Below, piece by piece: positions 20,040 through 37,682 of a stretch of DNA of 64,000 bases. The position numbers and the translations under genes were made by a program. Origin of the DNA: Chromohalobacter nigrandesensis (GTDB lineage Bacteria; Pseudomonadota; Gammaproteobacteria; Pseudomonadales; Halomonadaceae); the NCBI RefSeq assembly GCF_023061285.1, contig NZ_JAKGAM010000017.1, forward strand, positions 1 through 64,000, written 5' to 3'. The notes beneath the pieces are model-generated. The model was not told the DNA's origin. It saw nothing but the letters and a program-made list of their open reading frames with translations, and made no database searches. Numbering within the stretch: the stretch's first letter is position 1; every line of letters starts with the position of its first letter.

Positions 20040-20870
20040 ATGCGTTCCGAAGACAATCTGTTGCCGCTGATCGTCGAGCCCGAACAACTCGCCGAACATC
20101 TAGGCGCCCCCGAACTATTGATCGTCGATGTACCGCTCAAGGCCGACAGCTACACCGACAGCCACGTGCCCGGCGCGGTGTTTCTCGATCACCGCCGCCT
20201 GCTCGCGGGCGATGGCCCGGTACCCAACGACATCCCCGACGAAGAAGCGCTTTCCACGCTGTTTTCCGAACTCGGCCTGACCCGCGACACCCACGTCATC
20301 GCCTATGATGACGAAGGCGGCGGCTGGGCCGGGCGCCTGCTATGGACGCTGGAGCTCATCGGCCACACCCGCTATTCCTATCTCAACGGCGGCATTCATG
20401 CCTGGCGCGGCGACGGGCAACGCGTCGAGCGCGAACCAAACACGCCCACGCCCAGCGATTACCAGGCAGAATTTCTCCACCCTCAAGTGTTGATCGAACG
20501 CGAGGAACTCATCGACCGCCTGGATGAACGTGAACTCGCGGTCTGGGATGCCCGCTCGCCGGACGAATATCGCGGCGAAAAAGGCAAGAACGCCCATATG
20601 GGGCATATTCCCGGCGCCGTCAATTTCGAGTGGACGGATGCCATGGACCCCGAACGCCACCTGCGCCTGCGCGATTACGCCGAACTCATCGCCGAGCTCG
20701 AGGCCAAAGGTCTGACGCCGGATAAAGAGATCGTCACCCACTGCCAGAGCCACCATCGCAGCGGCTTCACCTGGCTGGTGGGCAAGGCTTTAGGCTTCGA
20801 GAAGATGCGCGCCTACCCCGGTTCATGGCAGGAATGGGGCAACCGCGACGATACGCCGATAGAAAAGTAG
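20040..20870 (+). CDS. rhdA: Thiosulfate sulfurtransferase (tandem rhodanese)
   Basis: 276-aa protein of two rhodanese domains. The first (residues ~10-130) lacks a catalytic Cys; the second (~150-275) carries the active-site loop with C235 followed by QSHHR, almost the CQTHHR loop described for Azotobacter RhdA. It transfers sulfane sulfur from thiosulfate to acceptors. In Pseudomonas the next gene is psd; here psd lies 9.6 kb away, so the material from 20881 on looks inserted. The stop codon is only 10 bases from the stop of the convergent TetR gene. Confidence 0.9.
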   Translation: MRSEDNLLPLIVEPEQLAEHLGAPELLIVDVPLKADSYTDSHVPGAVFLDHRRLLAGDGPVPNDIPDEEALSTLFSELGLTRDTHVIAYDDEGGGWAGRLLWTLELIGHTRYSYLNGGIHAWRGDGQRVEREPNTPTPSDYQAEFLHPQVLIEREELIDRLDERELAVWDARSPDEYRGEKGKNAHMGHIPGAVNFEWTDAMDPERHLRLRDYAELIAELEAKGLTPDKEIVTHCQSHHRSGFTWLVGKALGFEKMRAYPGSWQEWGNRDDTPIEK

Positions 20871-20880
20871 CCGACAGATA

Positions 20881-21474
20881 TCATGTTCGGGCAGTTAGAT
20901 AGGGACCCAGCACCCGATCCACCAACGCGGCAATATAGCGCTGGTCGATGTCGGTGAACGACACCGTCAGGTGGTAGTAAACCGCACCGTAAATAAGATC
21001 CAGAGCCAATCCAGGGTCGACTTCCGGTCGCAATTCGCCTCGCGCGATGGCCGACTCGATGGCCTCTTGTCCCATACGGCGCCTGGGCGCGATCCAGCGT
21101 TCCACGAACGCCTCGCGCAGGTCGGGTTCGGCCTGTGCAGTCCCCAGCAACTCCCGCAGCAACTGCCCACGCGGCCCTTTCAGGGCCTCCACCAATGCAC
21201 CAACGCTCTGGCAGAAGTTATCGTGGATGGGCAGTTGCATATCATAGGCGATCATCGGCCCTACCTCCTCGAAGAAGGCATCCATGACGATCGCCGGGGC
21301 ATTCGGCCAGCGCCGGTAGAGGGTCGACTTGGCCACCCCCGACACGGCGGAGATACGCTCGACGGTGGCATGCGGCAGGCCTCCTTCGAGCGCCAGGTCC
21401 AACGCGGCCCGCATGGCCTTCGGGGCTGCCGAGGTACTGCGCGGCCGCCCCGGTCGAGAGGAAACTGAAGACAT
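20881..21474 (-). CDS. TetR/AcrR-family repressor (intact copy)
   Basis: 197-aa regulator. Residues ~20-65 are the TetR helix-turn-helix (ALDLALEGGLPHATVERISAVSGVAKSTLYRRWPNAPAIVMDAFF region), the rest an all-helical ligand and dimer domain ending LVDRVLGPYLTART. The ATG at 21474 follows AAGGGTG; a TTG at 21492 is the longer alternative. Its upstream gap holds an 18-bp palindrome that also occurs in front of a second, truncated copy of this gene and in the promoter of the oxygenase gene, so it likely represses its own gene and those. Ligand unknown; a modified amino acid is my guess from the cargo. Confidence 0.88.
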   Translation of the reverse strand: MSSVSSRPGRPRSTSAAPKAMRAALDLALEGGLPHATVERISAVSGVAKSTLYRRWPNAPAIVMDAFFEEVGPMIAYDMQLPIHDNFCQSVGALVEALKGPRGQLLRELLGTAQAEPDLREAFVERWIAPRRRMGQEAIESAIARGELRPEVDPGLALDLIYGAVYYHLTVSFTDIDQRYIAALVDRVLGPYLTART

Positions 21475-21524
21475 TGCTGACACCCTTGCCAAAAGCCACT
21501 TAAGAAGATTAGGGTTACTTCATA

Positions 21525-21542
21525 ATACGAAACGATTCGTAT
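21525..21542. promoter_or_regulatory. TetR operator candidate 1
   Basis: ATACGAAACGATTCGTAT, arms ATACGAA/TTCGTAT, about 50 bases upstream of the intact TetR gene. Near-identical 18-mers occur at 26060 and 25515 and a degenerate one at 29569, all inside this island. Confidence 0.75.
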
Positions 21543-21663
21543 CGAGCCTTATATAGGCTGCCCAACGATACCACGACACGCTTTGCAACGGCCAATGTAC
21601 GTCTTTGCGGGGATCATGACGCCGCCTAGCTCCGTGCTGGAAACACTTGAGGAGTATTCCTGA

Positions 21664-21924
21664 ATGTCTTCGCCTGTTTCTTCAAGAGTCGGCGTAGGTG
21701 CCATCGTCACTCGTGCCGATGGCAATCTCCTGCTCGGTTACCGGATCAAGACCGGTAAAACACCCAGCGAACCGCAAGTGACCGAGCCGGATGTCTTCTC
21801 CCGATGGGCGTGGTTTCCGCCCCTAGACCTCCCCACGCCACTATTCCCGGCAAGCGATGCCGTGTTCAGCCTATGGAAGGGTATTCCCGGTCCTGAGGGA
21901 TGGCACGCTTATAGCATTCTGTGA
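21664..21924 (+). pseudogene. Nudix hydrolase remnant with catalytic box deleted
   Basis: 86-codon ORF identical in layout to the first 35 and last 51 residues of the intact Nudix protein at 27444-27893. An in-frame deletion of 63 codons removed the complete Nudix box (the GX5EX7REUXEEXGU motif), so it cannot hydrolyse nucleotides. The reading frame stays open and the start keeps its GAGGAGTATTCCTG leader, which itself is the fused 3' end of the deleted oxidoreductase gene. Substitutions such as S to L or D to G show it has drifted since duplication. Confidence 0.85.
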
Positions 21925-22204
21925 ACGCCATAAAAGCAATACCATATCGTCTGCTCGACTGCCTTGGTAATTAATTTGGCACTACTGCAGCAAGACTGAA
22001 TTGTATATGTGAAGCGGCCTACCTCAAAGTTTTAAAGGATATAAGTAAAGTCATTAGGGGAACAATATGAGCGACGCTATCCAGGTGTCATCAGCGCCAT
22101 AAGCCCGCAACCCATCAGAAAAGACTGCCTCCGATTCGCAAAGCCTTTCATTCCGCTCAGCTTTCTATATCGGATTAAAGCGCACAATATTTACACAACC
22201 TCAA

Positions 22205-22807
22205 TTAAATAATTTCTGACACCACAAGCCATACAGACGACACCATCAATACACCCCCTAACACTTGGTTAACTGTTTTTCTCGCCTTCTCAGAACTCAA
22301 CAAATGATCAACCAGCCTACCAAAAGAGGCCCAAAAATATAAACAAACATACCCCAAGGCAACCAACATGGCAGAAACAACGACGACGGCTTGCCATATA
22401 TTCAGGACGGTTATAGCGGAGGAGGATACTGTGACAGCCATCACCCATGTCTTGACATTAATAATCTGAAATAATGCAAGGCTGAAGAATCCATATGAGT
22501 TATAAACTTCAGGTGTCGAACCTGTTTCTCGAAACATAAGGGACCCTATATATAGAAGATAACCGCCACCAACAATAACCATGACTTTTCTTACGATGGG
22601 ATAAGCATGGACTATTTTGTCTAACCCAAGCAATGTCAAAATAATGACAGTCACTCCACCCAAAATGATACCGCTAATTGGTTTCGCGACGAACCCCAAC
22701 CCGTGTTTCTTAGCAGCAAACAGCACTATAAAATTATTGGGCCCTGGTGTGATAAGTGATGCAAAGAGAAGCCCAAAAATAGGAGTCAGCGTTAACAGCG
22801 AGGTCAT
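22205..22807 (-). CDS. LysE-superfamily amino acid exporter (island cargo 1)
   Basis: 200-aa inner-membrane protein with about six hydrophobic helices. The start FGLLFASLITPGPNNFIVLFAA contains the LysE/RhtB signature TPGPNN; ISGIILGGVTVIILTLLGL follows, and the C-terminal half has FQIINVKTWVMAVT in the usual NPK region (here NVK). Members export lysine, threonine, homoserine, cysteine pathway metabolites or leucine. AAAGGAA lies upstream of the ATG. The gene is much more AT-rich than flanking chromosome. It is last of four minus-strand cargo genes and lies 126 bases after the AlaX gene. Confidence 0.85.
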   Translation of the reverse strand: MTSLLTLTPIFGLLFASLITPGPNNFIVLFAAKKHGLGFVAKPISGIILGGVTVIILTLLGLDKIVHAYPIVRKVMVIVGGGYLLYIGSLMFRETGSTPEVYNSYGFFSLALFQIINVKTWVMAVTVSSSAITVLNIWQAVVVVSAMLVALGYVCLYFWASFGRLVDHLLSSEKARKTVNQVLGGVLMVSSVWLVVSEII

Positions 22808-22933
22808 GAGGCGTTTCCTTTATACTTGGCGGTAAAGATACTCATCAATGGAACCAATACATGCATTTAAATGACTAAAAGAGCTTAGCAGCTTCGTGAT
22901 GCCCCCACTACTTATTTTTGCGATGCACAAAGA

Positions 22934-23581
22934 TCAGCGCCCAAGAATATCGTACCCAATCCTGAGTTTTCCTTTCTTCCTCTTGATTCCTTTTATTTCA
23001 ATATTACCAAGCTCTGACGTTGAACCAACGTGCGTACCGCCACATGGAATGGGGCGGTACGTATCGATGGAACAGACACGATTGGTATAAGGGTCGCCTT
23101 TAATAGCGACTTCTAGGTCGGCTGCTATTGCCTCGCGAACCAAACGCTCCACCTCGGCCTGCGTAATGTCGGTTTGTTCTTCTTCTCGAAACTCGACGCG
23201 GCCTTCCCCTGGCCAGTGATGGCCTGAAACCGCTATCAGGCCAGGAAAACGGACTTCGACGACTCCCGCAATGAGGTGGCCGGCACTATGCATGCGCATG
23301 TTGATCATGCGCTGCTCTTCATCGATGGCAAAAGGAAGTCTCATACCAGGCTGGATTCGACCCGCATCGCTGACAATATGATCGATTTCCCCATCCGATG
23401 CAAAACGGGTATCGAGAACCTGCACATCTCCGATCATTCCCCTATCCCCTCTTTGGCCTCCTCCCTGGGGATGGAACCAGGTTTCGGACGTTCTGATAAT
23501 TGTCTTTTCGCCGGTTACGACCGAGGTGATCGTGACTTCACCGGTCAGAGCTGAATCTTCAAGATAACGCCGTATAGTCAT
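22934..23581 (-). CDS. AlaX-type free-standing tRNA editing protein
   Basis: 215-aa trans-editing hydrolase related to the editing domain of alanyl-tRNA synthetase. The N-terminal half has the Gly-rich motif HPQGGGQRGD (residues ~37-46) that marks the AlaX-M class; the zinc site is complete with H98 and H102 in HSAGH and C180 and H184 in CGGTH. AlaX removes wrongly attached Ser (or Gly) from tRNA-Ala. Within an exporter/oxygenase cluster it could instead clear a tRNA charged with a non-protein amino acid; that is inference. GAGAGGAG precedes the ATG. Its base composition is closer to the chromosome than the AT-rich exporters on either side. Confidence 0.88.
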   Translation of the reverse strand: MTIRRYLEDSALTGEVTITSVVTGEKTIIRTSETWFHPQGGGQRGDRGMIGDVQVLDTRFASDGEIDHIVSDAGRIQPGMRLPFAIDEEQRMINMRMHSAGHLIAGVVEVRFPGLIAVSGHHWPGEGRVEFREEEQTDITQAEVERLVREAIAADLEVAIKGDPYTNRVCSIDTYRPIPCGGTHVGSTSELGNIEIKGIKRKKGKLRIGYDILGR

Positions 23582-23866
23582 AACACTCCTCTCAAAGATT
23601 TAATCTTTACATAGAATAAAACTCACTTCACCTTAAACTTACAAACCTTAAAGTGGCCCACTACCATATCATTATCAACAGATCCGAATAGAGCGCCGCC
23701 AACCAACAACCACTACTAATGAAACTTCATTCAAAAAAACAATCACCTCCATACCGACAAGCAAATAGCATTAAAATTACAACAAAAAAACCATCATACA
23801 AGATGACAAGACCAGCCTAAGCCCATCGCATCACTAATTACAACTCAAGCGATAAATCGGATTAAC
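23582..23866. other. AT-rich spacer without genes
   Basis: 285 bases, very rich in A and C on the plus strand, between the AlaX gene and the second LysE-superfamily gene. No ORF, hairpin or repeat was recognised. A promoter for the AlaX gene may lie here. Confidence 0.5.
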
Positions 23867-24481
23867 TTACAAAAGAACCACACAATAATACCCTCCAATA
23901 AAAATAAAAACAACACCAGGAGCAACATCAAAAAACTTATTATTGAATAATTTGCTTGAAGAAAAAAGACCAAACATCACCACCATAGCATTAAAGACTA
24001 AAAAGCTAACAAGAAGAAGTATTAAGAAGAAAAACACTTTATTCACTACTCCGCTGTAGCCCGCCATCATTGGAGTAAAAATTGCTGTAAAAAAAACAAG
24101 AGCCTTCGGATTCGAAATGTTAGTAAGCAACCCATATCTAAATGCATTAGGCAGGCTATGTGCATAGGCACGAGAAACCTCGTCTTTATCATTCGCAATG
24201 TTATCCACAGGAATGCTTTTAAAAAGATTGAAAAGTCCCAGACCAATAAGAACTAAAGCGCCTATGATAGGCAGGATATCTCTAAGAACAGGGGCAGCAT
24301 TTAAGGTTGCCGTAACTCCAATCATTGAAAGCAAGGACCAGATTGCTACTCCAAGAGTAACGCCAGCGGCAGCTCTAAAACCGGCACTGCGACCATATCT
24401 AATCGTACTCGAAGCGATTGCTACAACATCGGGCCCCGGAAGCACCATAACCAGGGCCCAATTGATCATATCAGCGAACAT
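23867..24481 (-). CDS. LysE/RhtB-family exporter (island cargo 2)
   Basis: 204-aa membrane protein, about six helices. LVMVLPGPDVVAIASSTIRYGRSAGFRAAAGVTLGVAIW matches the RhtB/LysE N-terminal signature (PGPD variant), and NISNPKALVFFTAIF is the NPK motif. It begins only about 50 bases after the oxygenase stop codon on the same strand, so the two are probably one transcript. Different in sequence from the other LysE-type protein here, so they may have different substrates or form complementary exporters. Composition is strongly AT-rich. Confidence 0.85.
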   Translation of the reverse strand: MFADMINWALVMVLPGPDVVAIASSTIRYGRSAGFRAAAGVTLGVAIWSLLSMIGVTATLNAAPVLRDILPIIGALVLIGLGLFNLFKSIPVDNIANDKDEVSRAYAHSLPNAFRYGLLTNISNPKALVFFTAIFTPMMAGYSGVVNKVFFFLILLLVSFLVFNAMVVMFGLFSSSKLFNNKFFDVAPGVVFIFIGGYYCVVLL

Positions 24482-24531
24482 TATGCGAACTCATTTTCAA
24501 AAAAAACCACACCATCATGTAGCCGCTTTAC

Positions 24532-25341
24532 TCAAGACCATATCATTAAACTTCCATTGGCGTTAATCCCGACAAAGAACGACAGCGTTATCCTTCTCCC
24601 TTCACTTCTGTTAGATTCAACTCTATGGTAGTTTCTTGGATCAAAGAAAATGGCATCTCCTATTTCAGGCCGAATGGAGATGGCAGGCTCATTTTCTACT
24701 AAGCGTTCTGAATAACCATATCCATCACGATGATTCTCATCATTCGGGAGCCACTTACGGCGAAAAACTGTTACCTCACCACCTTCTCGGGGCATGTCTA
24801 TAAAACAGTTAAAAGCCAGTTGAACCAGTGGGGAGCAATCTAGACTGCCTGGCAGTTCTCTTTCAATTTCATCGAAATGAATACGCGCACTGCTATTTAT
24901 CTCACGAATCATACCGGCAAAAAGCTTTTCTCCTCCGATTGTTGCCTTTTCTACCGGACCCCCCCAAGCTTTAGATAAAACTCTAACCGCAATATCTAGT
25001 GGATCGCCAGTTTCTAAGAGGCGGGCTCGCTGATCATTAGATTGGTCTCGATGCTGCCAGTAAGCTTCACCAAGCCTAGCATCTAAATAGTAGTCATAGA
25101 CAGCTGGGCCTAACTTAGCTATGCGTGGCGTTACCACCTTCTCATCATAAGCACCAAGTTCAGCATTTTTTAGATTGGTGCTAATTGCGCTGCACAAGTC
25201 ATAGCCAAAAAAATTTCTTACTCGCAATACAGATGCCGTCCCAGTTGCCACCCTGATCAGGTCTCCTTTCTCTAACTGCTCATTACATATCGGCTCAAAG
25301 AGAGTATGAACAGGAGTCGGTGTGCCAGAATCAATCACCAT
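24532..25341 (-). CDS. 2-oxoglutarate/Fe(II)-dependent oxygenase, possibly a free amino acid hydroxylase
   Basis: 269-aa cytoplasmic enzyme. The iron triad is visible: H155 and D157 in RIHFDEIE, and H239 in FFDPRNYHRVE, followed by R249/R250 in EGRRITLSFFVG, the usual 2-oxoglutarate carboxylate anchor. Because the motif is HxD rather than HxG, hydroxylation rather than halogenation is expected. The general layout reminds me of the BesD-like family acting on free lysine or ornithine, but I cannot verify this; a prolyl-hydroxylase-like enzyme is the alternative. AGGAG lies seven bases before the ATG. It heads the cargo operon with amino acid exporters downstream, and its promoter contains the island operator. 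Confidence 0.8.
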   Translation of the reverse strand: MVIDSGTPTPVHTLFEPICNEQLEKGDLIRVATGTASVLRVRNFFGYDLCSAISTNLKNAELGAYDEKVVTPRIAKLGPAVYDYYLDARLGEAYWQHRDQSNDQRARLLETGDPLDIAVRVLSKAWGGPVEKATIGGEKLFAGMIREINSSARIHFDEIERELPGSLDCSPLVQLAFNCFIDMPREGGEVTVFRRKWLPNDENHRDGYGYSERLVENEPAISIRPEIGDAIFFDPRNYHRVESNRSEGRRITLSFFVGINANGSLMIWS

Positions 25342-25506
25342 TCTTCATCTCCTAAAACCTGTAGGTAAAAGTTAAATAGATAACGTTCATGTTGCTATCT
25401 TGTTGATACATCGGGTAAACCCAAACCACGCTAACGCCGAGCGATACATCAGCACTCATCCAGAGTCTCGCCAGTGCCCCCCTTCACCAAGCATGAGCTT
25501 TACTTC

Positions 25507-25535
25507 AATTTAAGATACGAATCGAATCGTATCAA
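25507..25535 (-). promoter_or_regulatory. Promoter of the oxygenase operon with operator in the spacer
   Basis: Reading leftward, TTGATA (25535-25530) and TAAATT (25512-25507) are spaced by exactly 17 bases, and the island palindrome fills that spacer. This is a classic arrangement for TetR repression. The start codon lies about 165 bases downstream. Confidence 0.6.
25515..25532. promoter_or_regulatory. TetR operator candidate 3
   Basis: ATACGAATCGAATCGTAT, arms ATACGA/TCGTAT, in the promoter of the oxygenase operon. Same outer arms as operators 1 and 2. Confidence 0.7.
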
Positions 25536-25661
25536 TAAATATTAGTACTCAACTAATCGTGGATCAACCCCGAATCTCCACGCTCCGAAATGGCTGACAC
25601 AAGATTCTGAATTTAAAACATTTTTATGTCAGACAAGCCGCCCCAATCTAGCGTAATGCTG

Positions 25662-26009
25662 TCAGCCGAACTGGCGGGCAGCACCCGCAGCAACTGCCCG
25701 CGCGGCCCTTTCCAGGGCCTCCACCAATGCGCCAACGCTCTGGCAGAAGTTATCGTGGATGGGCAGTTGCATATCATAGGCGATCATCGGCCCTACCTCC
25801 TCGAAGAAGGCATCCATGACGATCGCCGGGGCATTCGGCCAGCGCCGGTAGAGGGTCGACTTGGCCACCCCCGACACGGCGGAGATACGCTCGACGGTGG
25901 CATGCGGCAGGCCTCCTTCGAGCGCCAGGTCCAACGCGGCCCGCATGGCCTTGGGAGCTGCAGAAGCACTACGCGGCCGCCCCGGTCGCGGAGATGAAAC
26001 GGAAGACAT
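25662..26009 (-). pseudogene. TetR repressor, second copy, frameshifted and truncated
   Basis: 115-codon ORF. The first ~95 residues are nearly the same as the intact TetR at 20881-21474 and retain the whole helix-turn-helix. An extra C (CTTTCCAGGG here, CTTTCAGGG in the intact copy) shifts the frame after GALVEALE, and homology ends altogether near 25681 where repeat R1 takes over, so the ligand and dimer domain is gone. It probably no longer represses; a DNA-binding fragment is conceivable but would lack the dimer interface. Confidence 0.85.
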
Positions 26010-26059
26010 TGCGGATACCCTTGCCAAAAGCCACTCAAGAAGATTAGGGTTATTTCATA

Positions 26060-26077
26060 ATACGAAACGGTTCGTAT
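26060..26077. promoter_or_regulatory. TetR operator candidate 2
   Basis: ATACGAAACGGTTCGTAT, one base different from operator 1 and in the same position relative to the duplicated TetR start; it also lies about 105 bases upstream of the oxidoreductase gene. Confidence 0.72.
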
Positions 26078-26183
26078 CGACCCTTATATAAGCTACCCAA
26101 CGATACCATGCCACGCTTTGCAACGACCATTACACGTCTTTGCGGGGCTCATGACGCCGCCTAGCTAGCCGAGATCCTTTATC

Positions 26184-27443
26184 ATGCAGAACTACGATGT
26201 TGCCATCATCGGCGCCGGCCCGGCAGGCTTGGCCGCCGCGCAAAGACTCTCCCGTCGAGGGCACCGGGTCATTATCATCGACCAGGGCCACGCGATCACC
26301 GAGCGAGACAAGACAGCAGAGGCCGAACTGACACAGGGGCATGGTGGGGCCGGGCTGTATTCGGATGGGAAGTTCTCGTTCTTCCCTTCCGCGACCCACC
26401 TGTGGCACCTACCCAGGCGTGAAGCGTTGCATGACGCCTATACGTGGACCTGTGGCCTACTCAACGCCTATGGCCTGGACACCCCACCCTTTCCGGCCGA
26501 TGCCAATGCCTATACCACGGGTGTCGGCGACTGGGTGCTCAAGAGCTACCCTTCCAACTATCTTTCACTAGAAGCGCGCCTGGAGATGGTATTCGGCCTG
26601 GTGAGCGGGCTCGACGCCGACATCGCCTCCAGGACTCGCCTGACAAGTTATCGATATGACACATCGACGAAACGACACCATCTGGGACTGCAAAACACTC
26701 GACAGTATTACGAAATCGTTAGCCAAACATTGATCTGGGCAACCGGACGTTTTGGCGCTTTCGAGCTCGATGATGACATCAAGAAGACCTTCCGCCGGCT
26801 GGAAGTCGGGTTTCGCATCGAACAACCCAGCGAATTGGCATTCTTTCAATCCATTTCCAACCTGGATCCCAAGTTGACACTACGTGCCGAGACCGATGCC
26901 CTCGAATGGCGGACCTTCTGTGCCTGCCGCAATGGCCGGACCGTGCTCACGCAGACACAAGGGTTGTGGACGGTTTCCGGGCATTCCGATGGCCCGCCCT
27001 CGCAACGATCCAATGTCGGCTTCAACACGCGCATCCTCGATGAAGGGTTGGCAAGACGGACCATCGAAACAATCGGAACTGCCCTACGTGAACCCAGCGC
27101 TTATTATGAGATCCCGCTCAAGGCATGGCTCAATGGCCAAAAAGGCGCCACATCAACGATGAACGCCATTTACGGCAAGGAGGTGGCCCAAGCCATGCTA
27201 CAGGGCTTGCAGCAACTCATTCACAGCTTCCCGGCCATCGAGCATAACGAGACAAAACTGATCGGCCCAACCCTAGAAGGGATCGGCTGGTACCCGGAAG
27301 TCGATGGCACGTTACGCATCCCCGGTCGCCCCACCTGGGTCGTCGGCGACGCCTGCGGCTTATTTCGTGGTATCGTGGCGGCCTTCATCAGTGGCCACTA
27401 CGCAGCCAGCTCCGTGCTGGAAACACTTGAGGAATATTCCTGA
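26184..27443 (+). CDS. FAD-dependent oxidoreductase of unknown substrate
   Basis: 419-aa flavoprotein. Residues 5-15 give the Rossmann dinucleotide motif VAIIGAGPAGLAAA; the second FAD contact is near the C-terminus, TWVVGDACGLFRGIVAAFISGHYAA, as in the COG2509-like uncharacterised dehydrogenases. The ELTQGHGGAGLYSDGKFSFFPSATHLW region is also typical of that group. Its stop codon touches the Nudix ATG (TGA then ATG), so translation is coupled. A complete copy existed in the other module and was deleted. Role in the island is unknown; it could oxidise an amino-acid-derived product. Confidence 0.82.
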   Translation: MQNYDVAIIGAGPAGLAAAQRLSRRGHRVIIIDQGHAITERDKTAEAELTQGHGGAGLYSDGKFSFFPSATHLWHLPRREALHDAYTWTCGLLNAYGLDTPPFPADANAYTTGVGDWVLKSYPSNYLSLEARLEMVFGLVSGLDADIASRTRLTSYRYDTSTKRHHLGLQNTRQYYEIVSQTLIWATGRFGAFELDDDIKKTFRRLEVGFRIEQPSELAFFQSISNLDPKLTLRAETDALEWRTFCACRNGRTVLTQTQGLWTVSGHSDGPPSQRSNVGFNTRILDEGLARRTIETIGTALREPSAYYEIPLKAWLNGQKGATSTMNAIYGKEVAQAMLQGLQQLIHSFPAIEHNETKLIGPTLEGIGWYPEVDGTLRIPGRPTWVVGDACGLFRGIVAAFISGHYAASSVLETLEEYS

Positions 27444-27893
27444 ATGTCTTCGCCTGTTTCTTCAAGAGTCGGCGTCGGTGTCATCGTCACTCGTGCCGAT
27501 AGCAGTCTCCTGCTCGGCTACCGGATCAAGACCGGTGAAACCCCCAGTTGGTGTTTGCCGGGCGGCCACGTCGAACCCGGTGAAACATTCGAGACCGCCG
27601 CCCTGCGCGAACTTCACGAAGAAACCGGTATTATCACGCAACGGCCAGTCGCCATCCTCGCAATCCTGCAACAACTGACCGCTCGCCGCACGACGATCAC
27701 CGGCGCGGCGCGGATTTCTCTCGACGATAACCTCGCCGAACCGCAAGTGACCGAACCGGATGTCTTCGCCCGCTGGGCGTGGTTTTCGCCCTCAGACCTT
27801 CCCACGCCACTATTCCCGGCAAGCGATGCCGTGATCAGCCTATGGCAGGGGAGTCCATGCCCAGAGGGATGGCACGCTTACAGCGTCCTATAA
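27444..27893 (+). CDS. Nudix hydrolase (intact copy)
   Basis: 149-aa nucleotide diphosphate hydrolase. The Nudix box spans residues ~41-63 with GHVEPGE, RELHEETGI and all catalytic Glu residues. The segment DVFARWAWFSPSDLPTPLFPASDAV after it resembles the NUDT15/MutT-like branch acting on (d)NTPs or similar. It begins immediately after the oxidoreductase stop with GAGGAATATTCCTG as leader, so the pair is translationally coupled. The partner copy at 21664-21924 has lost this box. Substrate unknown. Confidence 0.88.
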   Translation: MSSPVSSRVGVGVIVTRADSSLLLGYRIKTGETPSWCLPGGHVEPGETFETAALRELHEETGIITQRPVAILAILQQLTARRTTITGAARISLDDNLAEPQVTEPDVFARWAWFSPSDLPTPLFPASDAVISLWQGSPCPEGWHAYSVL

Positions 27894-28255
27894 ACCTTAT
27901 AAATCCTGGCAGCCTGGTCGTCTAACTGGCGGTTTCCCACTACTGCAAGAAGTACCGCTCTGTAATTCATGGGATAGCTAGTCATCGAATTTCAAATAGA
28001 TGTGGGACATCAATATTTTCTATCCTCTGTAAACTTCCTTTTCAAAGTGCCACATTTAATCAACAAAGCTCCATTTTTATCGCTCTACTCATGCTTTCCA
28101 AAGCATCAGCTGCCACCTGTTTATCAGCCTGCTGATTGGAGGGTCGCCCATACTCAACTCAAACTTTCGAAAACATTCATAATTTTTCTTATATTGATGG
28201 CACCATTGATGAAAAATCAATAAACTCATAATGCGATGATATCCAACCAATACAA
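27894..28255. other. Intergenic, AT-rich, no gene recognised
   Basis: The first ~90 bases (to 27985) align loosely with the bases after the Nudix remnant at 21925-22010 (shared CACTACTGCA and TGTA). The remainder has short ORFs on both strands (73 and 62 codons) with no ribosome-binding site or recognisable product. Confidence 0.5.
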
Positions 28256-28275
28256 GGTCGGGTAGAACCCCGACC
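28256..28275 (-). terminator. Terminator of the lysO-like gene
   Basis: GGTCGGG/CCCGACC 7-bp stem with a 6-base loop, 17 bases beyond the stop codon of the minus-strand lysO-like pseudogene. No long T run follows (CTTGTATT). Confidence 0.5.
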
Positions 28276-28291
28276 ATTCATTAGCAGATAC

Positions 28292-29217
28292 TCAAAATGA
28301 ATAAAAGAATGGGATCAGGAAAGGAACCAACATTGTTATTATTCCACCCGAGAGCAAAGCCAAAGGCACATAACTAGAGCCGCAATGTTTTTCTATAACT
28401 GGCAATGTAACATCCATCGCTGTCGCTCCTGCCACTCCAATAGCTACGTTTCCGCCTCCAATTCTTGCGAACATTGGCAATAACAGCAATGCGAAAAGCT
28501 CTCTTATCAAATCACTTGTAAAAGCTATTGAACCTAACAGAGGATCTCCAAGTTGAGTTAAAAGAATTCCAGATAAAGTATACCAGCCAAAACCTGAGCT
28601 TATTGCAAAGGTTTGGCTTAATGACAGGGGTACAAAAAAGCTTGCAGCAAAAGCCCCCCATATGAAAGAATTACAGTTAAAAAAGTTACCAAAAAATATT
28701 TACGATTAAGGAAGATGGCTTTGAAGTTTGTACCAGCTACAGCCAGCTTTAATGCAATCAAAAATATTAGCACGTAAAGGAGAATAGAAATAGCGTGATC
28801 AACCCCTTCCCATTCTATCCAATTCATATTGCCGAGAAAAAAACCTATACCAACCAACCCTATCAACTTTACCGGGTCTGAGATATAAGATTTAAAATTA
28901 TAAAAAGATATTTTATAACCATTACCACTCCCTCTCCTGATGTTATTTTTAGATGTAACTAAAAACAAACCAACTGCTATAAAAAACGATGTAAATATAG
29001 CAATCAACGAAGCACTGTAACCCACCTCCAATAGCGAATCGACAACATCAGGAATGCTTCCAATCGAGAATCCCATTAGCAACAATAGGCTATAGAGAGA
29101 AATATCACTAACACGATCGATGCAATTGCCACCCACCTTTCTGACCAAGAATTTACTATTAAATCCAGCAATAAATGCAACTAATATAGGTAATATGCTA
29201 TAGATGGAAATTAACAT
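28292..29217 (-). pseudogene. LysO-type lysine exporter, frameshifted in a G6 run (island cargo of copy 2)
   Basis: Two reading frames together make a ~305-aa DUF340/LysO membrane protein. The first, 29217-28618, gives the N-terminal ~199 residues (LVAFIAGFNS, LYSLLLLMGFSIGSI, NRKYFLVTFLTVILSYGG). Adding one G to the six-G run at 28659-28654 restores the frame and yields SSGFGWYTLSGILLTQLGDPLLGSIAF, RELFALLLLPMFAR, GVAGATAMDVTLPVIEKHCG and LVPFLIPFF, all conserved in E. coli LysO (YbjE), which exports lysine and thialysine. The break is a simple homopolymer slip, so it may be a phase-variable switch, a decayed gene or a sequencing error. Strongly AT-rich. Confidence 0.85.
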
Positions 29218-29485
29218 ACATCACCTTCGACTATACCTGTCATAATATCATCGAATCCTTCAGCTCGCCTTATCATTTCGACTTTCCCCGAGGCTCTTAC
29301 AATAGACTCTGCAGGCCTAGGCTTTAGGTTAAAATTTGAACTCATTGTGGTGGCCCATCTTACGAGCCACTATCAGAGAATGCATGGCTCATATTCTTCA
29401 TCAACTCTCCAAGACCGCGCACGCAGTCCGAGCAGAAATACAGAGATCGATATATTCGATCGCATCATTGATCCGTCGCTACCAC
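29218..29485. other. Gene-free stretch upstream of the lysO-like gene
   Basis: AT-rich near 29218-29345, then mixed composition. ORFs starting near 29336 and 29347 on the plus strand overlap in different frames and show no protein features. Probably leader and eroded sequence. Confidence 0.4.
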
Positions 29486-29744
29486 CAAGCGATGCGCCAG
29501 CACTCAACCCAGAGCCTTGCTGGCGCCGCCTCATCTTTACCAATCAAAGCGCTACCGCACTATTTTTGAAACGGTACGATTCGTTTAACAACTATATTAT
29601 CTGAACGCTTCTCGGATCAACCCCGAATTTCTACACTCCACCCTACTTACAACAAGCCTTTGAATTTAAAGGTTTTTATTTCAAAGTATCTTACCAGTAG
29701 CTAGCGTCATGTTGTCTTGGTAAAGGAGGAGAGTTGGCGGGCAG
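29486..29744. repeat. Island regulatory repeat R2
   Basis: Diverged counterpart of R1 (25438-25681), placed upstream of the minus-strand lysO-like gene exactly as R1 is upstream of the oxygenase gene. It carries the degenerate operator 4; the -35-like TTGTTA is kept but the -10 position is no longer promoter-like, suggesting decay. Confidence 0.7.
29569..29586. promoter_or_regulatory. Degenerate TetR operator 4
   Basis: AAACGGTACGATTCGTTT matches operator 1 at 14 of 18 positions and sits at the same place in R2 as operator 3 in R1. The symmetry is partly lost. Confidence 0.5.
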
Positions 29745-29964
29745 AGCCCACCGAAAGTCGAGGATGAAGCATAGGGAGAAGGCAGACTATGAGGCTCAAG
29801 GGCGAGCGCCTGGGCCTGGGGGTCTTTTACTGAAAGGTATTCAGTTCGTTGTTCAGTACGCGGGGCGAGATGTGGAAGCGGCAGGCAAACAGGACGGGGC
29901 TAGATCAAGATGGCCGAGAGCGCCGCCGGGTGCGTTAGCGTTACTTTCACCTAACATGGCGCTT
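29745..29964. other. GC-rich stretch without recognised gene
   Basis: GC-rich after the AT-rich cargo. A 109-codon plus-strand ORF from 29734 runs through it and over the antitoxin gene on the other strand; its composition is not protein-like, so it is not called. Confidence 0.4.
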
Positions 29965-30288
29965 TCATGCCACGCTGACCGTTTGAACCTTCAGATTGAT
30001 ACTCAATGTTTTGCGCAAAGCACCGATGATCGCGGACAGGTTGTCCATGCCAGGATTGCCTGACGGAGACAGCATGCGATGCAGACTCTTGCTCGGCTTG
30101 CCAGTTTCTTTGGCCAGCGCTTCGAATCCCAGGGTCGCATTGACCAGGTCGCGCAATATCAAGCGAGCGGTGTCAGGCTCGCCATTTAGAAACAGTGTGA
30201 CAGCCTCATCCAGCATGGCTTTCGTGAACGCTGGATCACGCTCGACGCGAGCGCCGATAGTCGTCTTGAAATCGCGGGTCAGCGCCAT
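29965..30288 (-). CDS. HigA-like addiction-module antitoxin / XRE-type regulator
   Basis: 107-aa small DNA-binding protein. It follows the antidote family that starts LTRDFKTTIGARVERDPAFTKAMLDEAV and contains LILRDLVNATLGFEALAKETGKPSKSLHRMLSPSGNPG, the lambda-repressor-like helix-turn-helix with the MLSPSGNP hallmark. GAAAGGAGG lies seven bases before the ATG at 30288; an upstream TTG/GTG reading to 30354 overlaps the toxin remnant. Only a C-terminal stub of the partner toxin remains upstream, so this is an orphan antitoxin that may still repress at the nearby palindrome. Confidence 0.83.
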   Translation of the reverse strand: MALTRDFKTTIGARVERDPAFTKAMLDEAVTLFLNGEPDTARLILRDLVNATLGFEALAKETGKPSKSLHRMLSPSGNPGMDNLSAIIGALRKTLSINLKVQTVSVA

Positions 30289-30289
30289 C

Positions 30290-30361
30290 TCACTTCCCTC
30301 CTTTCTTCGCCTGGCGCTTGCGCCGTCTGTATTCGTCGCGCAGTGCCTTGGCATTGTCTAT
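30290..30361 (-). pseudogene. C-terminal remnant of a RelE/ParE-type toxin gene
   Basis: The 23 codons ahead of the antitoxin start read IDNAKALRDEYRRRKRQAKKGGK then TGA one base before the antitoxin ATG. This is the basic C-terminal tail that toxins paired with this antitoxin class typically carry. The frame is closed by TAA just upstream, next to a 16-bp palindrome, so the body of the toxin gene has been deleted between operator and tail. Confidence 0.65.
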
Positions 30362-30365
30362 AAAA

Positions 30366-30381
30366 GTAACTTATAAGTTAC
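30366..30381. promoter_or_regulatory. 16-bp perfect palindrome, probable antitoxin operator
   Basis: GTAACTTATAAGTTAC is a perfect inverted repeat lying at the 5' edge of the toxin remnant, where toxin-antitoxin operons usually have their autoregulatory site. Confidence 0.6.
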
Positions 30382-30513
30382 CATATATCAAAGCTCATGA
30401 CGGAGTTGAAGCGGCATTGGAGAACCCAGCTTACATCAGCTCGCCGTAGCCTTGCTATTGCACCACTGCACCGCTGCCACTAATGTGGCGAGTTCTCCTC
30501 CATTGCCGTGGAT

Positions 30514-31350
30514 ATGCCCGTGGATCGCGACGAACTCTTCGCCAGAATTCAACATCCCCTGCCCCATCACCTGATTTCACGTGGGGTGGGCAAGCTTGCC
30601 GAGAGCCGTACGCCGTGGCTCAAGGACCTGCTCATTCAGCGTTTCATTCGTACCTTCGATGTCGATATGAGCCAAGCCGTCGACAGCGATCCCGAGGCCT
30701 ACGCCTGCTTCAACGACTTCTTCACCCGTGCGCTCTCCCCCGAGGCGCGGCCCATCGGCGAGGGCATCGTCTCCCCCGCCGATGGCACATTGTCGCAGTT
30801 CGGTGCCATCGATAACGGCACTCTCGTCCAGGCCAAGGGGCATACCTATTCGCTGACCGCCTTGTTGGGAGGCGATACGCATCGCGCCGCGCCCTTTCGG
30901 GAGGGCCACTTCGCCACGGTCTATCTCTCGCCGCGCGACTATCATCGCGTGCACATGCCGGTGACAGGTACCCTGCGCGAAATGATCTACGTGCCGGGAC
31001 GGCTGTTCTCGGTCAATCAGGCCACTGCCAATCATGTGCCGGGGCTCTTCGCCCGCAACGAGCGCCTGGTCTGCCTGTTCGACACCGAGCACGGCCCGTT
31101 GGCAATGGTATTGGTGGGCGCGATGATCGTCGCCGCCATCGAGACGGTGTGGGCCGGCCAGATCACGCCGCTCAGCGGCCGCGTACAGACGACTCGCTTC
31201 GACGAGCCCATCGTGATCGAGAAGGGTCAGGAAATGGGCCGCTTCAAGCTCGGCTCCACCGTGGTGATGTGCTTCGGCCATGACGTTGCGTTTCGCGACA
31301 TCTGCACCGACGGCCTGGTGGTCAGCATGGGGCAGTCCCTCGCTTCCTAG
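30514..31350 (+). CDS. psd: Phosphatidylserine decarboxylase proenzyme
   Basis: 278-aa membrane-associated enzyme making phosphatidylethanolamine from phosphatidylserine. The protein begins in register with known Psd ([21 protein letters not shown]) and has [25 protein letters not shown] and [11 protein letters not shown]. The self-cleavage motif LGST is at [11 protein letters not shown]; cleavage gives the pyruvoyl Ser of the alpha chain. Start is uncertain: GTG 30508, ATG 30514 or GTG 30520, none with a good Shine-Dalgarno. In Pseudomonas this gene directly follows rhdA; here the island separates them and may have replaced its native leader. Confidence 0.92.
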
Positions 31351-32552: not shown

Positions 32553-32585
32553 GCGAAAAATGCCAGCGACGCTGGCATTTTTCGC
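32553..32585. terminator. Bidirectional terminator between epmA and efp
   Basis: 16-bp perfect inverted repeat, GCGAAAAATGCCAGCG and its complement, separated by one base, with A and T tracts inside the arms. It ends the minus-strand efp transcript before epmA. Confidence 0.85.
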
Positions 32586-32681
32586 TCGAAGCTCGAAGCT
32601 CGAAGCTCGAAGCTCGAAGCTCGAAGCTCGAAGCTCGAAGCTCGAAGCTCGAAGCTCGAAGCTCGTAGCTCGTAGCTCGTA
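32584..32681. repeat. Tandem 7-bp repeat: 11 x GCTCGAA then 3 x GCTCGTA
   Basis: Fourteen perfect heptamers in a row, followed by GCTCAG, directly between the terminator and the efp stop codon. The repeat is not in a coding region of efp or epmA. The last 20 bases (GCTCGTAGCTCGTAGCTCAG) recur exactly at 44609-44628 in front of the parE stop. Confidence 0.95.
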
Positions 32682-32688
32682 GCTCAGT

Positions 32689-35579: not shown

Positions 35580-37295
35580 TCAGACCTCGCCAAGCGTCTC
35601 GGCGGTGACGTTGGGCGCCGGCGCCTGCTGAGTACGCCAATGGCGATTCAACGCGCCGAGCACGGCCTTCATGGAGGCGCTAGTGATGCTCTCGTCGATG
35701 CCGACCCCGAATATCGGCGTCTGCTCGACACGCACCTCGACATAGGCCACCGCTTCGGCATCGGCGCCTTGACCGCGCGAATGCTCGTGATAGTCGATGA
35801 TCTCGACATCCAGCCCGTGGGCCGCCAGCGCCTTGATGAAGGACGCCAGCGGGCCGTTGCCCTCGCCGGTAACCTGGCGACACTCGCCCTGTTCCTCGAT
35901 CTGGGCGTCGAGACGCACGCGGGGGCTGTCGTCATCCGAACTCAGGCGATGATTGATCAGCGCATAGGGTTCGCGGCTGGTGAGATATTCGTCCTCGAAG
36001 GTGCGATAGATCATTTCTGATGTGATCTCGCGTCCGGTGCGCTCGGCCACCGTCTGCACCACCTGGCTGAATTCGATGGACAGACGACGCGGCAGCTCGA
36101 TGCCGTGTTCCTGTTCCAGCAGATAGGAGACACCGCCCTTGCCCGATTGACTGTTGACGCGGATCACCGCTTCGTAGGAGCGTCCCACATCGAGCGGGTC
36201 GATGGGCAGGTACGGCACGCCCCAAGGGCCGTCGGGATTGTCGCGACGCTCGGCCATGCCCTTCTTGATGGCGTCCTGGTGCGAGCCCGCAAAGGCCGTG
36301 AAGACCAGGTCACCGACATACGGATGGCGCGGATGCACCGGCAACTGGTTGCAGTGTTCCACCTCACGCATCAGCGGCGTGATATTGGAAAAATCGAGCT
36401 GCGGATGCACGCCCTGGGTGTACATGTTCATCGCCAGGGTGACGATATCCACGTTGCCGGTGCGCTCGCCATTGCCGAAAAGCGTGCCTTCCACGCGGTC
36501 GGCGCCGGCCATCATCGCCAGCTCCGCCGCCGCCACACCGGTGCCGCGATCATTGTGCGGATGCACGCTCACCACCAGGCTATCGCGCCGCGCGACGTGA
36601 CGGCAGAACCACTCGATCTGATCGGCGTAGTGATTGGGTGTGGCGATTTCCACCGTCGCCGGCAGGTTGACGATCATCGGCTTGGCCGGCGTTGGCTGAT
36701 AGACCTCGCTGACCGCATCGACGATCTCCACGGCGAAATCCAGCTCGGTGGAGGTAAAAAGCTCCGGCGAATACTGGAAGGTCCAGTCGGTCTGCGGGCG
36801 GGCAGCCATCATTTCCTTGATCTGCGTCGTGGCATCCTGGGCGATCTGGATGCACTCGGCCTTGTCAACACCGAATACCACCCGGCGGAAGACCGGATCG
36901 GTGGCGTTGTAGACGTGCACGATGGCGCGCTTGACGCCTTCCAGCGCCTCGAAGGTGCGCTCGATGAGGTGCGGGCGCGCCTGAGTCAGTACCTGGATGG
37001 TGACGTCATCGGGGATCGCGTCGTCGTCGATCAGCTCACGCACGTAGTCGAAATCGATCTGCGAGGCCGAGGGAAAGCCAACCTCGATCTGCTTGAAGCC
37101 TGCCTTGACCAGCAAGTCGAAGAAGCGCCGCTTGCGCTCGAGATCCATGGGATCGATCAACGCCTGGTTGCCATCGCGCATGTCCACGCTGCACCACTCG
37201 GGCGGCTGCGTGATCCGCTGCGCCGGCCACTGGCGATCGGGCAAGTCGACGGCCTCGAAGGGACGATACTTGGTGGAAGGGTCCTTGAGCATCAT
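35580..37295 (-). CDS. leuA: 2-isopropylmalate synthase (second copy)
   Basis: 571-aa enzyme, same class as the copy at 8321-10012. [38 protein letters not shown] and [10 protein letters not shown] mark the catalytic barrel; the C-terminal domain is the leucine-sensing one. GAAGGAG lies before the ATG at 37295; the frame is open to 37571 but that part is leader. A strong 11-bp hairpin in the leader (37363-37396) suggests attenuation-like control, unlike the first copy, which faces an Lrp regulator. Confidence 0.93.
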
Positions 37296-37682
37296 GGCGT
37301 TATCTCCTTCTGCGGTATTCAAATGACGGGAATCGAATGCCCTGCACCGGCCCGAACACGACGACGCCCCGCGGCGGATAAGCCTCGCGGGGCGTCGGCA
37401 ATGACATGACACAGCGGCTCGCGAATCGCATCGCGGGCCGAAGAGCGCGTGACGACGGCGCGGCAAGCATTCGGAAAGGTCGGGGAGAGAGTGGCGGTAT
37501 TCGACATGGCTGACATTATCTTCGTTGGACTGGGCTGCGTTAGACCGGGAGGGTGACGATGCACGAGGCATCCCGTCGGCTCATAGGCCGATGGTAAGTC
37601 GTAGGTCTAAGCGTATTAGTCGCATGTCGAAGATCGTCATATAGCTAACTAAACAGCTGTACGCATGGCTGTCAACCGCCCC
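37296..37682. other. Leader and promoter region of the second leuA
   Basis: 387 bases without a supported gene. Contains a perfect 11-bp hairpin GACGCCCCGCG/CGCGGGGCGTC at 37363-37396 and, further upstream, a possible 14-residue leader ORF (37584-37540) reading [14 protein letters not shown] with Ile, Val, Leu and Val near its end. No T run follows the hairpin. A longer minus-strand ORF from 37516 overlaps the hairpin. Emfourin gene ends at 37683. Confidence 0.5.
37363..37396 (-). promoter_or_regulatory. leuA: Leader hairpin upstream of leuA
   Basis: 11-bp perfect GC-rich stem with a 12-base loop, about 70 bases before the leuA start. Candidate attenuator or pause hairpin; lacks a U tract, so not a classic terminator. 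Confidence 0.5.

Follow-up and report, generated by a model that had tools for sequence, protein, structure and literature searches.

We have analysed a 64,000-base stretch of the genome of the salt-tolerant bacterium Chromohalobacter nigrandesensis (Halomonadaceae; assembly GCF_023061285.1, contig NZ_JAKGAM010000017.1, positions 1–64,000 of the forward strand), hereafter the window, in which a compact set of four genes, all on the minus strand, occupies positions 22205–25341. According to the listing of open reading frames and the Pfam matches, the first gene of the set encodes a WelO5-like Fe(II)/2-oxoglutarate (2OG) oxygenase of 269 amino acids (24532–25341, from here on OX). It is accompanied by an RhtB-like exporter of the LysE superfamily (LysE2, 23867–24481), a free-standing AlaX-M-like tRNA deacylase of 215 amino acids (22934–23581) and a second, divergent LysE-superfamily exporter (LysE1, 22205–22807), which has a counterpart at the equivalent position in Modicisalibacter coralii, another member of the Halomonadaceae. 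The G+C content between 22.0 and 25.5 kb is 0.35–0.54 per 500-base step, compared to about 0.59–0.65 before 21.5 kb, as expected for acquired DNA. A preliminary description had joined these four genes with a LysO-type exporter into one five-gene island; the four genes hold together, whereas LysO does not belong with them, and instead of a single island there is a partially duplicated region that holds two distinct segments of cargo.

The oxygenase matches the Pfam family WelO5 (PF22814; 5.2e-10, 39.8 bits, cut-off 27), and alignment with its relatives places the active site at H155-x-D157, H239 (the distal His) and R250, so that the full HxD...H...R site recognized at the outset is confirmed. 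In this type of enzyme, the presence of the Asp in the HxD motif marks a hydroxylase, while its replacement by Gly or Ala marks a radical halogenase. The motif is kept in all 34 aligned relatives and the distal His and Arg in 33 of them, the only one lacking these two residues (L066) having a broken frame. With the Asp retained, OX should hydroxylate rather than halogenate, and a radical halogenase was ruled out on this basis (on the Asp/Glu ligand, see PMC13244439). The AlphaFold2 model of OX (pLDDT 89.6) has WelO5 as its best Foldseek match (TM up to 0.79), followed by other 2OG enzymes, with SadA, an N-substituted L-amino-acid dioxygenase, at rank 22. A profile built from 31 relatives retrieved the same two proteins with hmmsearch (WelO5 2.1e-16, SadA 1.5e-6), which are the nearest solved folds and profile matches of the window enzyme. 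Both differ from it, WelO5 being a carrier-independent halogenase of alkaloids that lacks the Asp ligand (the entry 5iqu is a G166D variant, while OX keeps HxD) and SadA acting on N-substituted amino acids. The nearest known gene is the oxygenase located beside besD on the megaplasmid of Streptomyces cattleya, where BesD was recognized via PDB 6nie; the two oxygenases are 37–38% identical (38% over 99% of the query) and share HxD. This neighbor of besD is probably BesE, the beta-hydroxylase of beta-ethynylserine biosynthesis. A BesD-type lysine halogenase or hydroxylase was also considered for OX itself and ruled out by motif and sequence, neither BesD (6nie) nor the lysine hydroxylase 7jsd being found among the sequence or profile matches of OX, and hhalign giving a probability of 0.2% against BesD.

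The deacylase retains the GGQ, HxxxH and CxxxH motifs (PF07973, tRNA_SAD, 5e-7), and its AlphaFold2 model (pLDDT 94.8) is closest in Foldseek to the AlaX-M trans-editing proteins 9iuw and 2e1b (TM 0.84–0.85). It scores far below the curated AlaXM equivalog, with 92.9 bits for NF040865 against a cut-off of 300, and differs in a pocket motif in which both Pyrococcus AlaX-M chains have a Thr and the window protein a Gln. This AlaX-M Thr takes part in serine recognition. Replacement of the pocket Thr by Gln or Lys was seen in 18 of the 19 OX-linked AlaX proteins (16 in a first alignment and two of the three added later, the exception being that of locus L153, with an Arg), compared to four of 16 unlinked ones, all four within the same branch of the tree. 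The pocket of these proteins may thus read an amino acid other than serine. It had been raised as an objection that AlaX could be a simple housekeeping editor, and the genome searches do not bear this out. The window genome contains this AlaX and one long frame of the size of an alanyl-tRNA synthetase (AlaRS), with nothing further; among 11 OX genomes, the three with an OX-linked AlaX hold it together with an AlaRS-sized frame, and the remaining eight have AlaRS-sized frames only, bar a weak match of 254 amino acids in G944. Here, AlaX is not a housekeeping protein.

Both exporters belong to PF01810 (4.6e-25 for LysE2 and 1.4e-12 for LysE1), and their best NCBIfam model is TIGR00949, homoserine/threonine efflux (45.9 bits for LysE1 and 106.1 for LysE2, below the cut-off of 183.95). 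The lysine exporter model TIGR00948 (cut-off 213.65) gave 16.5 bits for LysE1 and no listed match for LysE2. The same was found for 10 LysE proteins from loci of this kind, one of which (L062) is a locus without OX: TIGR00949 was the best model for all 10, each below the cut-off, and TIGR00948 was absent or weak. By sequence, these exporters appear to resemble homoserine/threonine exporters and not the lysine exporter. Other transporter types also occur, such as a major facilitator superfamily (MFS) protein in the Embleya locus and an EamA protein adjoining OX in a P. aeruginosa plasmid locus.

The set of oxygenase, AlaX and LysE does recur elsewhere, in Pseudomonadota, on plasmids and in some actinomycetes. 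OX was found in four of 201 genomes of the family, eight of 369 of the class, five of 398 of the phylum and two of five in the family of genome G463 (G940 was sought since its relative G463 had an OX match). These amount to 12 distinct Pseudomonadota genomes at E <= 1e-20, the window genome included and four weak matches of the class search, in G519, G323, G489, and G360 (E 5e-7 to 6e-4), excluded. AlaX adjoins OX in nine of the 12. Six of them, from several families (G120, G463, G679, G842, G899, and G940), have the order AlaX-OX-LysE, two (the window and M. coralii, whose OX is 88% identical to that of the window) have OX-LysE-AlaX-LysE, and one, G495, has OX-AlaX near a contig end. In G204 and G920 no AlaX was detected in the opened stretch around OX, and in G086 a contig edge close to OX cuts off the locus. 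On plasmids, 18 OX records were listed and 12 opened, with AlaX adjoining OX in six: Embleya, A. johnsonii, Caballeronia, Undibacterium and two of Photobacterium sp. GJ3, one of these with broken frames. No OX relative was confirmed in viral contigs, and the phage records, queried with one relative (the OX of L057), gave no match.

Two plasmid records deserve separate mention. A 6,362-base plasmid with the order AlaX-OX-LysE is found with equal length from A. johnsonii and from Achromobacter xylosoxidans (L005, NZ_CP068212.1), possibly a single plasmid present in two records or a cross-contamination. Another plasmid, from A. johnsonii FDAARGOS_910 (L062, 3420–5710), carries LysR-AlaX-LysE without the oxygenase. 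This is a possible immunity-only set, which would fit a role in antagonism and, equally, a role in detoxification.

How far this linkage exceeds chance can be judged from the background of AlaX genes and from the trees. Among 200 sampled Pseudomonadota genomes, AlaX was detected in 12 at the sensitivity used, at 13 loci, of which two are OX loci; at none of the remaining 11 was either OX or LysE seen in the adjoining 1.5 kb or so. Out of five opened plasmid AlaX loci without OX, two carry LysE (L062 and L069). On the OX tree, linkage to AlaX requires six changes (four of them forced by well-supported branches) in a first tree and seven (four forced) in a second one, from which two and five rows, respectively, with long branches or broken frames had been omitted, and for which only the 275 C-terminal residues of the L153 OX were used. 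The window AlaX is nearest, after that of M. coralii, to the Caballeronia AlaX, although the Caballeronia OX appears in another branch of the OX tree. These repeated changes and differing nearest kin indicate that the pairs have been assembled more than once, a pattern that speaks for a functional link and not for common ancestry alone.

The best clue about the substrate comes from actinomycetes. Two genomes, G1106 and G1087, have the order AlaX-LysR-LysE-OX-LeuA-LeuB-like frame, followed in G1087 by a branched-chain aminotransferase. LeuA and the aminotransferase exceed their curated cut-offs; the LeuB-like frame is short in G1087 and cut by the contig end in G1106. As the OX of these genomes is 55% identical to that of the window, the closest found outside Halomonadaceae, the leucine-biosynthesis genes beside it suggest that the substrate is of the leucine type, taken from that pathway, rather than lysine. 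The profile match to SadA and the place of the nearest known oxygenase beside besD, in the pathway to the threonine antimetabolite beta-ethynylserine, also count in favor of the proposed type of substrate. At other loci, OX has PhyH, zinc dehydrogenase and ProC genes as neighbors, which recall the pathways for methylproline from leucine. Three actinomycetes, Embleya, Wenjunlia, and Actinacidiphila, have the OX-AlaX pair beside nonribosomal peptide synthetase (NRPS) genes, and the codes of the adenylation domains, read by eye from the motif positions, are DVQHLSLID in Wenjunlia and DVPHMSLVE in Embleya. Each is close to the code for serine, from which it differs by one change in the pocket; this resemblance is too weak to settle the substrate. 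The window also contains a LeuA (2-isopropylmalate synthase, 35580–37571, minus strand) about 10 kb from OX, named from its translation and from 51% identity to the Streptomyces LeuA that adjoins OX, and LeuA is also near OX in M. coralii. It is probably an old chromosomal neighbor, but a striking one given the leucine link.

Taken together, we consider it probable that the four genes form a cassette to make, export and protect against a hydroxylated amino acid. Gene content, motifs, predicted folds, the recurrence of the set and the non-housekeeping AlaX have been established; the substrate, the hydroxylated position, the tRNA, export and toxicity belong to an inferred mechanism. In this mechanism, the substrate of OX would be a free amino acid, in all likelihood leucine itself or a homologue from its pathway, which would be hydroxylated perhaps at C3, giving a beta-hydroxy amino acid similar to threonine or serine. 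The RhtB/LysE exporters would expel this product, the AlaX-type deacylase would strip it from a tRNA misloaded by a synthetase, so that the proteins of the producer are spared, and once outside, the compound would be an antimetabolite for neighboring cells. The core of the hydroxylate-export-protect idea in the preliminary description has thus gained support from the recurrence of the set and the non-housekeeping AlaX, while its lysine and LysO components are not supported. A more far-reaching version can be put forward only tentatively. It would see here a minimal, mobile operon of three functions acting as a small-molecule weapon, in which the oxygenase makes an antimetabolite of translation from an ordinary aliphatic amino acid, the exporter releases it and the AlaX-type deacylase gives immunity, repeatedly assembled, with a pocket-altered AlaX, borne on plasmids and with immunity-only counterparts, resembling a bacteriocin-immunity system with a free amino acid as toxin.

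Several known systems resemble parts of this set. The closest is the FthB/FthC pair from the 4-fluorothreonine cluster of Streptomyces cattleya and Streptomyces sp. MA37, in which an aminoacyl-tRNA deacylase, likewise free-standing, and an exporter protect the producer of an unusual amino acid (PMC7408626). There, fluorothreonine is made by other enzymes, and the scheme as described has no 2OG oxygenase (PMC7408626). Judging from its gene content, the window set may work in a similar way. The claim that no such system had been described needs to be qualified: the combination of deacylase and exporter in a cluster for an unusual amino acid is already known from FthB/FthC, and for the oxygenase-based three-gene form no paper was found in the open-access literature (titles and beginnings of abstracts, with most subscription journals outside). 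Read as a make-export-protect cassette, the set would be a case of self-protection by deacylase and exporter, unusual in its reduction to three functions and in its mobility. The bes cluster of S. cattleya, with the oxygenase nearest to OX, differs in having a halogenase and other pathway genes; its product, beta-ethynylserine, is used in place of threonine (PMC10250548). CtdA, the canavanyl-tRNA(Arg) deacylase, also works as a separate protein to free tRNA from an antimetabolite, but it belongs to another fold family (B3/4) and to catabolism and not synthesis (PMC10018355). Finally, plasmid p1 of Pseudomonas tremae (L069, 846–6026) carries an annotated alanyl-tRNA editing protein and a LysE-family transporter directly after the coronamic acid genes, annotated as cmaA, a chlorinating enzyme and cmaC; coronamic acid is itself a non-protein amino acid. 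The biosynthetic enzymes are different there, and its AlaX falls in another branch and has HxxxE where the window protein has HxxxH; the locus suggests that AlaX and LysE may serve other non-protein amino acids too.

The same genes could be explained in other ways. One is detoxification, in which the cell would encounter a toxic amino acid from other producers, and OX would inactivate it, LysE expel it and AlaX clear it from tRNA. The A. johnsonii plasmid with AlaX-LysE and no OX is in line with it, as is CtdA, a free-standing deacylase that accompanies catabolic genes for canavanine (PMC10018355). We nevertheless regard detoxification as unlikely, because the nearest known OX sits in a biosynthetic cluster, the leucine-supply genes beside OX in two genomes suit the synthesis of a building block, and so do the NRPS genes next to OX-AlaX in the three actinomycetes. 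These last loci, together with the MFS exporter, would in turn favor another explanation, that OX makes a building block of a larger product, AlaX guards in passing and the window cassette is a relic from which no antimetabolite is released. Against this, the set usually comes with LysE in Pseudomonadota, where no NRPS genes were noted at the loci opened, and its occurrence on small plasmids, among them the 6,362-base one of A. johnsonii, makes it look self-sufficient, so we find this explanation rather improbable.

A lysine-related product, as originally envisaged, with OX hydroxylating lysine and the LysE and LysO exporters removing it, now appears very improbable. It could appeal to the existence of 2OG lysine hydroxylases near BesD (7jsd) and to the Pfam names LysE and Lys_export, but OX falls outside the BesD group, without a match to either protein, the exporters fit the homoserine/threonine models best, TIGR00948 being absent or weak, and it is leucine genes that adjoin a close OX relative. 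The LysO gene itself (28618–29217, minus strand; PF03956, 7.4e-9) was rejected as a member of the set. It is a piece with a broken frame and a partial match, its LysO-like sequence continues in another frame, and it lies in a separate segment at a distance of about 3 kb, with a truncated TetR gene, a FAD enzyme and a NUDIX gene in between; no LysO match was obtained in the corresponding locus of M. coralii. Least probable of all is that the genes are chance neighbors and AlaX an ordinary Ser-tRNA-Ala editor without functional connection to them. AlaX is indeed found away from OX too, but its adjacency in nine of 12 OX genomes contrasts with its presence in only 12 of 200 sampled genomes, the host has no other AlaX besides the AlaRS-sized frame, and the exchange of the pocket Thr for Gln or Lys affects nearly every OX-linked protein.

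A number of observations weigh against the make-export-protect cassette. Many OX loci have no AlaX, which is therefore not obligatory for this enzyme family. Among 12 loci retrieved by a peptide pattern (one of them that of M. coralii), AlaX adjoins OX in three and was not detected within the 6-kb flanks of OX in the other nine. In the family of Wenjunlia, OX is present in 38 of 394 genomes, and AlaX lies within 1.5 kb of it in three of the 30 loci examined and not in the other 27, although two more, with AlaX about 2.8 kb from OX, appeared among five of these loci that were opened wider. AlaX is thus a minority partner of OX in actinomycetes, and it also occurs at places without OX. Neither AlaX nor LysE was detected within about 10 kb at the bes locus. 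The control for LysE is soft, as the probe missed the annotated exporter of L069 once this was left out of the probe. BesE reportedly acts on a gamma-glutamyl dipeptide, which makes a free amino acid as the substrate of OX an assumption; beta-hydroxylation by OX is drawn from distant kin, and the window cassette itself contains no gene for amino acid supply.

Editing of tRNA by free-standing proteins as self-resistance has been documented for few unusual amino acids, fluorothreonine being the clear case encountered in this analysis and canavanine another one, in a degrader. If the cassette acts as proposed, this kind of self-resistance would be widened to a family of hydroxylated amino acids in Proteobacteria and actinomycetes, and AlaX proteins would gain a role beyond Ser/Gly-tRNA-Ala. 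The presence of AlaX beside a biosynthetic enzyme would then also provide a search handle for amino acid antimetabolites, which ordinary gene-cluster searches may miss because only three genes are needed. The Gln or Lys in place of the pocket Thr makes it testable whether such an AlaX reads a different amino acid.

The surroundings of the set show the partial duplication mentioned above, with TetR and NUDIX pieces on either side in the repeat analysis. To the left lie a TetR regulator (20881–21492, minus strand) and a NUDIX remnant with an internal deletion (21664–21924, plus strand; repeat families D4 and D5), and to the right a truncated TetR copy (25662–26027, minus strand; D1, D3, and D7), a FAD-dependent oxidoreductase (26184–27443, plus strand) and a NUDIX hydrolase (27444–27893, plus strand) that is kept beside the FAD gene. 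At E <= 1e-40, the FAD gene was found in 14 of the 201 genomes of the family, and the TetR-FAD-NUDIX unit is present in 12 of 12 opened loci. These three genes were considered as cassette members and rejected, being a conserved neighborhood found also in relatives without OX. The order in M. coralii is rhodanese-TetR-FAD-NUDIX-[LysE-AlaX-LysE-OX]-psd, with the set inserted between NUDIX and psd. This slot (window 20040–31350; L061, L100, and L014 in other Halomonadaceae) varies in its cargo from genome to genome: the window and M. coralii have the OX set, G008 has genes for an aminotransferase, an ATP-grasp protein, a PEP mutase and an MFS protein, and G027 has an MFS gene, one piece similar to a PEP mutase, LysE and pieces similar to flavin enzymes (partly from reading of the translations). 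It may be a hotspot for small biosynthetic cassettes. Both cargo segments of the window have at their right end the 25-base element GATCAACCCCGAATNTCNACNCTCC (25562–25586 and 29615–29639), which is found again in the slots of relatives, in L061 at 1188 (five mismatches) and in L100 at 10530 (two mismatches).

Upstream of OX there is a palindrome, ATACGAATCGAATCGTATC (25515–25533), like the sites at the TetR genes and a possible TetR operator. The exact palindrome ATACGAANCGNNTCGTATC has three sites in the 64 kb (21525–21543, 25515–25533, and 26060–26078), one preceding OX and the others at the two TetR/FAD promoters, compared to 0.32 expected when up to three mismatches are allowed. It also appears with zero to two mismatches near TetR in the 12 scanned loci. 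Upstream of OX in M. coralii, a site was found only with three mismatches and none with fewer. Control of the cassette by TetR is possible, judging from the exact palindrome in the window. Scans of the whole window with Rfam and for tRNA genes gave no matches, and a tandem run of the 7-base unit GCTCGAA (repeat family D2) lies between two genes at 32584–32688.

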